From: Candidatus Peribacteraceae bacterium
GTDB taxonomy: Bacteria; Patescibacteriota; Gracilibacteria; Peribacterales; Peribacteraceae
Reading direction: 5' to 3'
Assembly: GCA_028699155.1 (NCBI GenBank)
Contig: JAQVVD010000006.1
Coordinates: 1-53,874, forward strand
Length of the DNA stretch: 53,874 nucleotides
The notes beneath the pieces were generated by a model, which did not search any database, was not told where the DNA came from, and was given only the letters and a program-made list of their open reading frames with translations. Positions 29,664 to 33,662 of the stretch are shown here, in pieces. Every line of letters starts with the position of its first letter. Positions within the stretch are counted from its first letter, which is position 1. The position numbers and the translations under genes were made by a program.

Positions 29664-29691
29664 TTGACATCAATTCATTCGAACGTATGAT
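29664..29691 (+). promoter_or_regulatory. Promoter of the cimA attenuator leader
   Basis: -35 TTGACA (29664-29669), 16-bp spacer, -10 TATGAT (29686-29691). The start codon of the leader peptide (GTG 29699) lies 7 nt after the -10, at the expected transcription start. The same geometry is seen before serA. Confidence 0.75.
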
Positions 29692-29698
29692 ACGCCCA

Positions 29699-29752
29699 GT
29701 GAGAAACTTCTCTATTCGCATCAGCATCATTATTATCCCGCGCCTGGCGTGA
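29699..29752 (+). CDS. Isoleucine-rich attenuator leader peptide
   Basis: Codons give MRNFSIRISIIIIPRLA (GTG start, stop TGA at 29750-29752). Six of 17 residues are Ile, four in a row (ATC ATT ATT ATC at 29726-29737). No other amino acid is enriched. The gene downstream makes citramalate, the first committed precursor of isoleucine by the pyruvate route. An in-frame ATG at 29687 lies inside the -10 box and is therefore probably upstream of the transcript start. The peptide likely has no function besides sensing charged tRNA-Ile through ribosome stalling. Confidence 0.8.
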   Translation: MRNFSIRISIIIIPRLA

Positions 29753-29813
29753 GGAACTGATTGCTGACTGCCACTTCGTTTCCCCTCCCGCCAGAAAGAA
29801 GAAGGCGGGTTTT
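29744..29813 (+). promoter_or_regulatory. Antiterminator/terminator pair of the cimA attenuator
   Basis: Terminator: CCCGCC (29787-29792), 11-nt loop, GGCGGG (29804-29809), then TTTT. Antiterminator: CTGGCGTGAGG (29744-29754, overlapping the last leader codons and the stop) pairs with CCTCCCGCCAG (29784-29794) over 11 positions with one mismatch, using the 5' arm of the terminator. The two folds exclude each other. A ribosome at the stop codon would cover the first antiterminator arm and let the terminator form. A ribosome stalled at the Ile codons would leave it free. Confidence 0.8.
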
Positions 29814-29834
29814 CTGTATCTACTCCCCTTTCCC

Positions 29835-31475
29835 ATGATGAAACCCCAAGTTGAACTCTACGACGCAACGGACCGCGACGGTGACCAGACGCTCGGCGTC
29901 AGCCTCTCTGCCGCACAGAAACTCACGATCGCGCAAGCCGACGACCGGTTCGGCATCCCCCTGGTGGAGGTTGGGTTCCCAGAATCGAACGCCGTGGACG
30001 ATGCGGTCTTCGCCGCCCTGCGCGGGCAGCCCCTGCAGCGCGCAAAGTACGCGGCATTCGGCAAGACCCGCAGAAAGGGCGTGCGCCCGGAGGATGACCC
30101 GGGACTGCGGTCGCTCCTGGCGACGCAGGCACCCGTTCTCACGGTGGTAGGAAAGAGTTCCCCGCGCCACGTCGTAGAGGGCCTGCGCGCGACAACGCAG
30201 GAGAACCTGCGCATGATCACGGATTCCGTCCGATTCCTGGGGCAGGAGGACGCCCGGGTGATCTACGACGCGGAGCACTTCTTCGACGCGTACTGCTCCG
30301 AGGGCGCCGAGGGGAGAGGGTACGCGATGAGGACGCTCCGTGCCGCCGCGGATGGCGGCGCACGCACGCTCGTGCTCTGCGAGACGAACGGCGGGCAGCC
30401 GCCTGAGCGCGTCGCGGAAGCCGTCGCCGCCGTCTGCGGGGAGTTCCACGATCTGCTCATCGGCATCCACGCGCACAACGACAGAGGGATGGCAACGGCA
30501 AATTCGCGCGCTGCCGTCCTCGCAGGCGCGCGCCACGTGCAGGGAACGTGGAACCGGACAGGAGAGCGCACGGGGAATGCAGACCTCGTGGAAGTGATCG
30601 GCAACCTGCACCTCGATGGATACGCAACCGGTGCGGATGGGAATATGTGCAGGCTCAAGCAACACGCGGAGGAGATTGCACGCATCCTGCGACAGCCCAA
30701 GATCCCCAACCAGCCGTTCGTCGGGGAACGGGCATGCGCACACAAAGGAGGCATGCACGCCAGCTGCTACCCGCTCTATGAGTTCACAGATCCGGGAACA
30801 TTCGGGAACAGGCGCCTGATCGTCGGCTCCAAGCAGGCGGGGCTCTCCAATATCCGGGAACTCGTGGCGCATGCGAAGATGCTGGAGGACGACTTGCGAG
30901 CCCGCGTGCTCGCCGATCCGCAATTGCAGCGCAAGATCCTCGCGGAGATCAAGCGGCTGGAGGAACAGGGCTACCGGTTCGACCGTGCAGATGCTTCTCT
31001 GGAGCTCCTCCTACTACGCACACTCGATGCGTTCGAACCAAAAATACGTGAAGTATGCCCTCCTGTCGTCCATGACGTGCTCGGCGGGGAAACATCTGCG
31101 ACGATCAAAGTCCAGATCAACGGCACGCAGGAGGTCTACCACGACGTCTGTGAGGGAGACGGACCGTTGGGCGCACTCTCCAATGCGCTGCAGAAGGCGC
31201 TACGCAGGAAGTACGCATCCCTCGAGCAGTTTCGACTGATTGATTACCGTATGGAGATAGCGCCGGGGCAGGAGGGCACCGGTTCCATCGTCGATGTGTA
31301 CGCAGAATTCACCGACGGGGAGGATACGTGGGTCACCACAGCAGCCAGCGTGGACTCCATCGAGGCGGGCTGGAAATCCGTCGTGGATGGCATCGAGTAC
31401 AAACTGCTCAAAGATGAGCGTTCCCGCCTCAGGCAGCGTGCATCTGCACCCGAGGACGGTGCAGCGGAATCCTGA
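29835..31475 (+). CDS. cimA: (R)-citramalate synthase
   Basis: 546 residues, the length of the TIGR00977-type citramalate/2-isopropylmalate synthase family. It condenses pyruvate and acetyl-CoA to citramalate, the precursor of 2-oxobutanoate for isoleucine. Seen: N-terminal HMGL-like barrel with VELYDATDRDGDQTLGVSLS (Arg-Asp of the active site), EVGFPESNAVDD, CETNGGQPP, and the metal motif GIHAHNDRGMATANS, GNADLVEVIGNL, then AHKGGMHAS, and a C-terminal LeuA-dimer domain (about 410-525) that usually binds the feedback amino acid. The Ile-rich leader upstream independently supports citramalate over isopropylmalate synthase. No Shine-Dalgarno; pyrimidine-rich CTACTCCCCTTTCCC precedes the ATG. 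No other Ile genes are adjacent. Confidence 0.88.
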   Translation: MMKPQVELYDATDRDGDQTLGVSLSAAQKLTIAQADDRFGIPLVEVGFPESNAVDDAVFAALRGQPLQRAKYAAFGKTRRKGVRPEDDPGLRSLLATQAPVLTVVGKSSPRHVVEGLRATTQENLRMITDSVRFLGQEDARVIYDAEHFFDAYCSEGAEGRGYAMRTLRAAADGGARTLVLCETNGGQPPERVAEAVAAVCGEFHDLLIGIHAHNDRGMATANSRAAVLAGARHVQGTWNRTGERTGNADLVEVIGNLHLDGYATGADGNMCRLKQHAEEIARILRQPKIPNQPFVGERACAHKGGMHASCYPLYEFTDPGTFGNRRLIVGSKQAGLSNIRELVAHAKMLEDDLRARVLADPQLQRKILAEIKRLEEQGYRFDRADASLELLLLRTLDAFEPKIREVCPPVVHDVLGGETSATIKVQINGTQEVYHDVCEGDGPLGALSNALQKALRRKYASLEQFRLIDYRMEIAPGQEGTGSIVDVYAEFTDGEDTWVTTAASVDSIEAGWKSVVDGIEYKLLKDERSRLRQRASAPEDGAAES

Positions 31476-32167: not shown

Positions 32168-32195
32168 TTGACGGCGCTCCCCGGAGGGCTACGAT
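32168..32195 (+). promoter_or_regulatory. Promoter of the serA attenuator leader
   Basis: -35 TTGACG (32168-32173), 16-bp spacer, -10 TACGAT (32190-32195), 7 nt to the leader ATG (32203). Identical spacing to the cimA leader promoter. Confidence 0.75.
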
Positions 32196-32202
32196 AGAGG
32201 CA

Positions 32203-32259
32203 ATGAATTCAGCCTACGTCCTCAACTGCTCCCCCGTTTCCTCCTGGTCCTCCCTCTAG
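32203..32259 (+). CDS. Serine-rich attenuator leader peptide
   Basis: Codons give MNSAYVLNCSPVSSWSSL, stop TAG at 32257-32259. Six of 18 residues are Ser (one TCA, five TCC), four of them in the last six residues, plus one Cys, which is made from Ser. The gene downstream is phosphoglycerate dehydrogenase, the first step of serine synthesis. The ATG sits 7 nt after the -10 hexamer, so the leader mRNA would itself be leaderless. Longer in-frame readings begin upstream of the promoter and are not expected to be transcribed from it. Confidence 0.8.
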   Translation: MNSAYVLNCSPVSSWSSL

Positions 32260-32260
32260 A

Positions 32261-32337
32261 GGGGGTGAAGCAGGTTGCATAGCAGATACGAGAACGTTTC
32301 GCACTTCACCCTCGAAATTTGCGCGAGGGCTTTTTTT
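32261..32337 (+). promoter_or_regulatory. Antiterminator/terminator pair of the serA attenuator
   Basis: Terminator: CCCTCG (32309-32314), 9-nt loop, CGAGGG (32324-32329), then seven T (32331-32337). Antiterminator: GGGGGTGAAG (32261-32270, 2 nt after the leader stop) pairs with CTTCACCCTC (32304-32313) over 10 positions with one G-U pair, consuming the terminator's 5' arm. The folds are mutually exclusive. With Ser in plenty the ribosome reaches the stop and masks the first arm, so the terminator forms. Confidence 0.82.
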
Positions 32338-32363
32338 GTATTTCCTTTCCCCTGTTCACCCCC

Positions 32364-33662
32364 ATGAATCCCACAGAGACACCCTCCCCAGTTCACTACG
32401 TCGGAGACCTCACAGAAGACGGCATACAACCGTTCCGGGTTGCGGCGCCCGACGGGTTCGATGCCGATGCCGTCACCGCAATCGCTACAACGCCCGGCAT
32501 GGAATTCCAAGCGGGCATCAAGAATGCCGCAGATGCACCGGATGCGCAGGGCATGCTCATCCGCAGTGCAACCAAGTTCAAAGATGCCGCGGCATTTGAG
32601 CGCCATCAGATGCTCCTGTACCTGATTCGCAGCGGCGTGGGTTACGACAATATCGATGTCACACTCGCCTCGCGCGCAGGCGTTGCGACGCTCAACACTC
32701 CCGGCGCCAGCACTACGCCCGTCGCCCGCAGGACGCTCACGCTGGTGAGCGCGTGGGCTGCGCGCATCGTGCCGGGAACCGACTCGCTGCGCGCCGGCAA
32801 ATGGGAGAAGAAGAACCCCCAAGTCGAACCGATCGACCTCACGGAGAAGACGCTCGGCATCGTGGGCTACGGCAGGATCGGCAAGGAAACGCAGCGCCTG
32901 GCGAAGGCACAGGAACTCTTTAAGGGCGTCCTTCATTACGATGTCTTGGGCGGCAATAGCAATACGCCGATCGAGGAACTCGTGGCGAAAGCCGATGTCA
33001 TGACGCTTAGCGCGGGAGGAAAGGATGAAATCCTCACGCCGGAACTCCTGAAGAACGTGAAGCCGGGCACGCTCATCGTGAATACCGGCCGCGGAGGGAA
33101 TATCAATAAGGAGGCGATTCTCGCCGCCATGGACCGCGGCGTGCACTTCGCGACCGATGTCTTCTGGGAGGAAGGGCCCAAGATGTTCGACGATCCGGTT
33201 ACCGCGCAGATCGTGGCGCATCCCAACTTCTTCGGTACGCCGCACACCGCCGCCTCCGATGAAGTCACGCAGCGGCAGCTCGGCACGGAAGGCTCCACGC
33301 GCATGATCGAGTTCGCCACGCAGGGCATCGTGAATCCGCACGATATCCCCGGCCACACGCTCGGCCGTTTCGACCTGGGCCGCAGGGAAGCCCCGGGCGT
33401 GCGCGGCATCGTGACGCACCAGAGCGTCCCCGGGAAACTGGAGGCGATCTCCGGCGCGCTCCACGGCAAAGGAATGAACATCGTCCGCGTGCAGAACGCG
33501 GAGGGCGGCATCAACGGCGGGCACAGGCTCGCCATGACGCAGTTTGACCTGGATCACACCGTGGAACCGGAGCAGGCCGTTGCCGTCATGCGGGATATCG
33601 CACGGCAAGTGGAAGCGTACCGGACACGGTTGCTCCTGTTCGCGAAGGAAAGCAACGCCTGA
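32364..33662 (+). CDS. serA: D-3-phosphoglycerate dehydrogenase with C-terminal ACT domain
   Basis: 432 residues, the short ACT-containing form of SerA. It oxidises 3-phosphoglycerate to 3-phosphohydroxypyruvate with NAD+, the first step of serine synthesis. Seen: substrate segment RSGVGYDNIDV (about 93-103), NAD motif LGIVGYGRIGKETQRLAK (about 168-185), NTGRGGNINKEAILAAM (active-site Arg), ATDVFWEEGP (Glu), FFGTPHTAAS (catalytic His), and an ACT domain (about 350-430) that usually binds serine for feedback inhibition. The ATG at 32364 follows the attenuator terminator by 26 nt with a C/T-rich leader and no Shine-Dalgarno. Control would thus act at both transcription (Ser-rich leader) and enzyme level. 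Confidence 0.93.
   Translation: MNPTETPSPVHYVGDLTEDGIQPFRVAAPDGFDADAVTAIATTPGMEFQAGIKNAADAPDAQGMLIRSATKFKDAAAFERHQMLLYLIRSGVGYDNIDVTLASRAGVATLNTPGASTTPVARRTLTLVSAWAARIVPGTDSLRAGKWEKKNPQVEPIDLTEKTLGIVGYGRIGKETQRLAKAQELFKGVLHYDVLGGNSNTPIEELVAKADVMTLSAGGKDEILTPELLKNVKPGTLIVNTGRGGNINKEAILAAMDRGVHFATDVFWEEGPKMFDDPVTAQIVAHPNFFGTPHTAASDEVTQRQLGTEGSTRMIEFATQGIVNPHDIPGHTLGRFDLGRREAPGVRGIVTHQSVPGKLEAISGALHGKGMNIVRVQNAEGGINGGHRLAMTQFDLDHTVEPEQAVAVMRDIARQVEAYRTRLLLFAKESNA

Follow-up and report, generated by a model that had tools for sequence, protein, structure and literature searches.

Ribosome-mediated transcription attenuation of amino-acid genes is known for trp, his, leu, thr, ilv and pheA in enterobacteria and for ilvB, trp and leuS in Actinobacteria. 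Here we analyze a candidate attenuator for serine, upstream of a serA-like gene in a 53,874-nt stretch of DNA (hereafter the window) from a member of Candidatus Peribacteraceae (CPR/Patescibacteria; genome G000). Its likeness to the classical amino-acid operon attenuators lies in a short open reading frame (ORF) carrying cognate codons, in mutually exclusive antiterminator and terminator stems, and in a placement of the control codons that would let a stalled ribosome free the 5′ arm of the antiterminator (strand 2). Serine is not mentioned in two comparative surveys of attenuators (PMC2965389, PMC1262725), and 5.39 million open papers (subscription papers lying outside this scope) yielded none on a ribosome-mediated Ser attenuator, a serine leader peptide or serA attenuation, in agreement with an earlier reading of the window from its letters alone (the sequence-only reading), which had noted that Ser-specific attenuation of serA is not known as a standard described system. 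One Caulobacter paper retrieved for "serine codons" concerns pausing under starvation rather than a serA leader.

The nearest described systems each share part of this design. In Paenibacillus polymyxa, serA responds to serine limitation via a Ser T-box (PMC8002221), and the Ser T-boxes of serA there and in other Firmicutes resemble the present case in that tRNA-Ser reports a shortage of serine and serA is regulated by antitermination. A T-box, however, binds uncharged tRNA directly and involves no translation, and we rejected a T-box riboswitch for our leader, which is only ~135 nt long and has no Rfam match at the gathering threshold (four tRNAs being the only Rfam matches in the window). 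In Corynebacterium glutamicum, synthesis of the ilvBNC leader peptide needs no ribosome binding site (Morbach et al. 2000, as cited in PMC10272879), and ilvBNC and the ilvB-II uORF motif share with our locus a leader peptide lacking a ribosome binding site, a conserved uORF and a terminator/antiterminator pair, but they use branched-chain codons, belong to Actinobacteria and always precede ilvB. Leader peptides of the Mycobacterium cys operons likewise carry codons for an amino acid of the serine family, but as Cys runs, with no intrinsic terminator and in another phylum (PMC1262725).

Against the described amino-acid operon attenuators, the Peribacteraceae leader stands apart in its peptide, which is conserved beyond the control codons, and in showing no strong strand 1:2 hairpin across all members; what would be new in ribosome-mediated attenuation is the serine specificity, the predicted leaderless start of translation, the CPR host and an output gene that is exchanged. 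If this reading is true, ribosome-mediated attenuation extends to serine as a signal, a mini-ORF with a predicted leaderless start can act as a sensor through its translation, and the mechanism is placed in CPR bacteria—uncultured organisms with genomes of ~1.2 Mb—for which the literature searched contained no such report.

Within the window, the leader begins on the forward strand with a sigma-70-like promoter (TTGACG-16-TACGAT, 32168..32195, from a consensus scan), of which TTGACG occupies 32168-32173 and TACGAT 32190-32195, with a 16-nt spacer read from the sequence. The ATG of the leader peptide lies at 32203, 7 nt beyond the end of TACGAT, and in 24/24 homologous leaders a -10-like hexamer ends 6-8 nt upstream of the start codon, a spacing that makes leaderless transcripts likely. 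The leader ORF (32203..32259, +), conserved in 24 Peribacteraceae genomes, encodes MNSAYVLNCSPVSSWSSL followed by a stop, with 18 codons that include one Cys and six Ser (codons 3, 10, 13, 14, 16 and 17), four of the latter among the final six residues. Codons 5-9 (TAC GTC CTC AAC TGC, 32215..32229) are constrained at both the nucleotide and the amino-acid level, and Ser13-Ser14 (TCC TCC, 32239..32244) are the presumed control codons on grounds of conservation and geometry. Next come strand 2 GGGGGTGAAG (32261..32270), identified from sequence, folding and a partner-swap test, and the 3′ arm of the antiterminator, strand 3 CTTCACCCTC (32304..32313), which together form 10 bp including one G-U; strand 3 overlaps the 5′ arm of an intrinsic terminator (32309..32337), whose stem (32309-32314/32324-32329, -8.4 kcal/mol) is followed by one C and seven T (32331-32337). 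The sequence-only reading had placed promoter, ORF, antiterminator and terminator correctly to the base. With a loop of 9, the terminator lay outside the reach of a generic terminator scan, which accepts loops up to 8 and did not report it. The folding energy of the whole leader is ordinary (z -0.16), and the support for it is conservation and covariation, not stability.

From this anatomy and its conservation, we judge that the leader quite probably works as a ribosome-mediated transcription attenuator, leaderless and with mainly Ser (TCC) control codons. Transcription would begin at the first nucleotide of the leader ATG or right next to it, with a ribosome loading straight onto the 5′ end of the RNA. 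With ample seryl-tRNA, the ribosome would pass the Ser codons and cover strand 2, leaving strand 3 to pair with strand 4, and transcription would end near 32337. With seryl-tRNA short, the ribosome would stall at about Ser13-Ser14 (or Ser10/Ser16) with its front edge at or just before strand 2, which could then pair with strand 3; this pairing would block the terminator, and the gene behind would be transcribed. In this way, read-through to the gene would probably be confined to times of serine shortage.

Using a degenerate pattern of the peptide core, we found this leader in 24 of 74 Peribacteraceae genomes, spanning 12-13 genera. The pattern gave 25 matches in the family genomes, one of which (G027) is a chance match and was discarded; the 24 leaders fall in genera g1, g7, g11, g12, g13, g17, g18, g24, g29, g33, g35 and g38, and the count of 13 includes the chance match, the listed genus labels being those used in the permutations described below. 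Across 85,000 GTDB species the pattern returned 15 matches, and the leader occurs only in Peribacteraceae: 13 of the 15 carry Peribacter, Peribacteria, Peribacteraceae, Peregrinibacteria or Patescibacteria names, and the two remaining (L062 and L063) match at the same positions as G017 and G067. The label of L063, Kiritimatiellales, is probably wrong, as it matches G067, which is placed in the window's family. In the rest of the class outside Peribacteraceae, the pattern gave only two matches (L050 and L051, from other families), both of which lie in long reading frames with no leader layout and were rejected as chance. The serA gene of G013 is preceded by a different leader, MTCQRSSSSCSCSSSSRKGCVGA (9 Ser, 3 Cys; L006:1345-1416), which has the same promoter-to-start geometry as the window leader plus a terminator and may be a diverged or independently arisen Ser leader.

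In all 24 leaders, the terminator ends in a T-rich tail and is overlapped by an alternative stem, supporting the attenuator layout proposed in the sequence-only reading. The stems vary by genus (GAGGG/CCCTC, GCGGG/CCCGC, GGGGG/CCCCC, GGGGCG/CGCCCC), and we compared the pairing of strand 2, fixed as nt 52-78 of the leader, with its own strand 3 and with the strand 3 of other genera. Pairing averaged -18.8 with the own arm vs. -13.4 with those of other genera, and own arms were better in 20,000 of 20,000 genus-level permutations, none of which matched them; the antiterminator arms co-vary, which answers the check in relatives that the earlier reading had proposed. The terminator arms showed the same swap outcome, although these arms were picked by folding and the test is biased towards it. 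RNAalifold on a MAFFT alignment of the leaders found no consensus structure because the 3′ half misaligns, and the covariation rests on the partner-swap test. Two further pairings were weakly supported by the same permutations: a protector hairpin of codons 10-16 with strand 2, which would form in the absence of translation (660/20,000), and codons 3-9 with the loop separating strands 2 and 3 (275/20,000). This weak support for a hairpin that would sequester strand 2 counts against the model.

The geometry of the leaders also fits the attenuator model. In 22/24 leaders the first base of strand 2 falls at nt 54-63; in G010 and G043 it falls at nt 69 and 71, by a less certain automatic call. If the ribosome edge is placed 15 nt beyond the start of the P-site codon, strand 2 is free in 24/24 when the A site is at codon 14 or earlier, and the first codon that masks it is codon 15-18 in 22 of the 24 leaders.

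At the level of the peptide, the 24 leaders share the core [MV]NxAY[VI]LxC[SA]PxSS, in which Tyr5, Leu7, Pro11 and Ser14 are invariant (24/24), followed by Cys9 (23/24), Ala4 and Ser10 (22/24 each) and Ser13 (21/24), so that the Ser codons on whose conservation the earlier reading depended are indeed kept in orthologous leaders. Ser14 is encoded by TCN in 24/24, and among the leader Ser codons at positions 8-18, TCC accounts for 83 of 121 vs. 27.7 expected, a bias that suggests reading of one isoacceptor; leader codon bias has been discussed by Elf and Ehrenberg in terms of selective charging of isoacceptors (PMC1183508). Wobble bases are fixed outside the Ser codons as well: codon 5 is TAC in 24/24 (14.1 expected from codon usage), codon 6 is RTC in 24/24 (7.7 expected), codon 7 is CTY in 24/24 (12.6 expected), and codon 9 is TGC in 23/24, i.e., in 23 of 23 Cys9 codons (13.7 expected). 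As the 24 leaders are related and not independent, these codon counts give a direction rather than exact odds. The fixed Tyr5, Leu7, Cys9 and Pro11 together with the wobble bases are not explained by plain Ser sensing and count against the simplest form of the model; more than Ser codon sensing may therefore be at work in codons 5-11. The Ser specificity claimed by the sequence-only reading is supported by the Ser codons and their TCC bias, and is qualified by this additional conservation.

The same conservation could reflect nascent-peptide arrest, in which the conserved core stalls the ribosome on a metabolite or drug and the Ser codons are incidental to the arrest motif, with leaders of the erm, cat and tnaC type as precedents. 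The invariance of Tyr5, Leu7, Pro11 and Ser14 (and near-invariance of Cys9) across genera, a pN/pS of 0.38 over codons 2-14, and a peptide that stays constant while the output gene varies would all be expected of an arrest peptide. On the other hand, the TCC bias and the conserved wobble bases favor codons over residues, nine of the leaders precede serA-like genes, and the G013 leader drops the peptide core yet retains its Ser codons while the rest of the peptide has changed, which favors a role for the Ser codons themselves. We therefore regard arrest as unlikely to be the main function of the leader.

Cysteine offers a different reading of these codons: Cys, or Ser and Cys jointly, would be the signal, with Cys9 and Cys15-16 as control codons and Ser sensed as the precursor of Cys. 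Besides the near-invariant Cys9, Cys occurs at codons 15-16 in most leaders, the control region of the G045 leader MNSAYVLNCSPIASCCCR has only Ser10 and Ser14 plus Cys, with up to four Cys, and leaders of this type count against a purely Ser-based model; the Cys-run leader peptides of actinobacterial cys operons (PMC1262725) would be a parallel. This reading appears quite unlikely to us, as the window leader has one Cys vs. six Ser and the G060 leader also has one Cys, a ribosome would have to move at least six codons past Cys9 before its edge meets strand 2, and the recognizable downstream genes are PGDH-like, none being a Cys gene.

The gene behind the leader in the window (32364..33662, +) encodes a divergent PGDH-like D-2-hydroxyacid dehydrogenase ("serA", 432 aa) according to profile and PDB comparison. 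Its best 12 PDB matches are all phosphoglycerate dehydrogenases (E 1e-28 and weaker), and it scores 148.9 bits against the NCBIfam PGDH model TIGR01327, below the cut-off of 454. PGDH is thus the best name by similarity for this putative enzyme, at a score far below the curated cut-off, and the earlier identification as phosphoglycerate dehydrogenase needs correcting to this extent. For serC, TIGR01364 had no match in G000 or in the single-contig genome of G028, a relative that shares the leader and serA; for serB, TIGR00338 gave only weak partial matches inside long ORFs, such as one of 812 aa. A single PF00266 (class V aminotransferase) protein is present in G000; its score resembles that of a protein which almost every relative checked also carries, and on that score it is probably a SufS-type cysteine desulfurase. 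The failure to detect serC or serB in G000 and G028 counts against the serine model, and control of serine synthesis by the leader is no more than plausible. A bona fide serB-serA-serC cluster occurs in G021 (C52:1687-4888) and G037 (C7:96163-99184), and no Ser leader was seen upstream of either.

Every leader is followed by a same-direction ORF beginning shortly past the terminator. This ORF is PGDH-like in nine of 24 genomes (G000, G012, G016, G023, G028, G058, G060, G236 and G237) and in the other 15 a small ORF (~62-182 aa), so that the statement that the leader controls serA can apply to the former group alone; the 15 non-serA outputs count against the serine model. The small ORFs had no significant match in Pfam or PHROGs and, by profile search, occur almost only behind leaders, the one addition being a weak partial match in G008. 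They evolve fast (33-56% identity) under mild coding constraint (pN/pS 0.4-0.8), and a low-confidence AlphaFold2 model (pLDDT 65) shows three strands and one helix. Examples are the small proteins at L095:5154-5408, L106:4596-4889 (-), L098:5633-5902 (-) and L100:2163-2444 (-); some end in a DLRHP-like motif, with no known family. If the serine reading is true, the leader points to a small-protein family of no known type under serine control. A pyrimidine-rich stretch (CCCCTTTCTCCC-like) precedes the gene start at 32340-32363 and at homologous loci, where no obvious Shine-Dalgarno sequence was seen.

Convergent downstream genes (lipoprotein, O-antigen-ligase-like) are common to the window and most small-ORF loci, and the congeners G065 and G237 illustrate how the gene in between can change. 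Their leaders are identical at 131 of 132 bases and the flanks on both sides are 82-84% identical, while unrelated genes lie between terminator and convergent gene, a clean replacement (L095 vs. L107 reverse complement). The leader therefore outlasts the gene it serves, and gene exchange behind a near-constant leader would be a direct route to the serine-shortage response of reduced bacteria. We entertain, tentatively and with considerable doubt, a broader reading in which the leader is a fixed serine-sensing socket at one chromosomal place in Peribacteraceae, the genes behind it are swapped—either small proteins that evolve fast or PGDH-like enzymes, the latter of at least two types—and codons 5-11 or the peptide have a second function, such as arrest or action in trans, beyond the report on serine.

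A further possibility is that selection maintains the leader because its peptide or the terminated RNA acts in trans, with read-through secondary; a trans role of this kind has been proposed for the Sinorhizobium meliloti peptide peTrpL (PMC7298713). The leader is better conserved than its surroundings in G065 and G237 even as the gene behind it is exchanged, and the small ORFs diverge rapidly, both as this view would have it. But an antiterminator held by covariation is sensible only if read-through matters, and the constant presence of a same-direction ORF just past the terminator also speaks for read-through; we consider a purely trans function very improbable.

Returning to the attenuator model, we assessed how readily its layout arises by chance with a blind scan of both strands for a sigma-70-like promoter, a start codon 5-8 nt past the -10, an ORF of 10-36 codons and a terminator within 150 nt, ignoring the residue composition of the peptides. 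The scan returned exactly two sites in the window and none in 20 dinucleotide-preserving shuffles, more than chance would give. The two sites are the Ser leader and, 2.5 kb from it, an Ile leader of like layout before citramalate synthase (29835-31475), and each peptide is rich in the amino acid of its downstream pathway. The Ile leader region (29664-29820) consists of TTGACA-16-TATGAT, 7 nt, a GTG start and a terminator, and its predicted leaderless ORF (29699-29752) encodes MRNFSIRISIIIIPRLA followed by a stop. Pathway-matched Ile leaders recur in relatives, with peptides such as MRRSRSIISTIIIPTLGARR, MRLRSTIISSIIIPALGVRR and similar, and in G032 and G066 the gene behind an Ile-type leader is apparently other than citramalate synthase.
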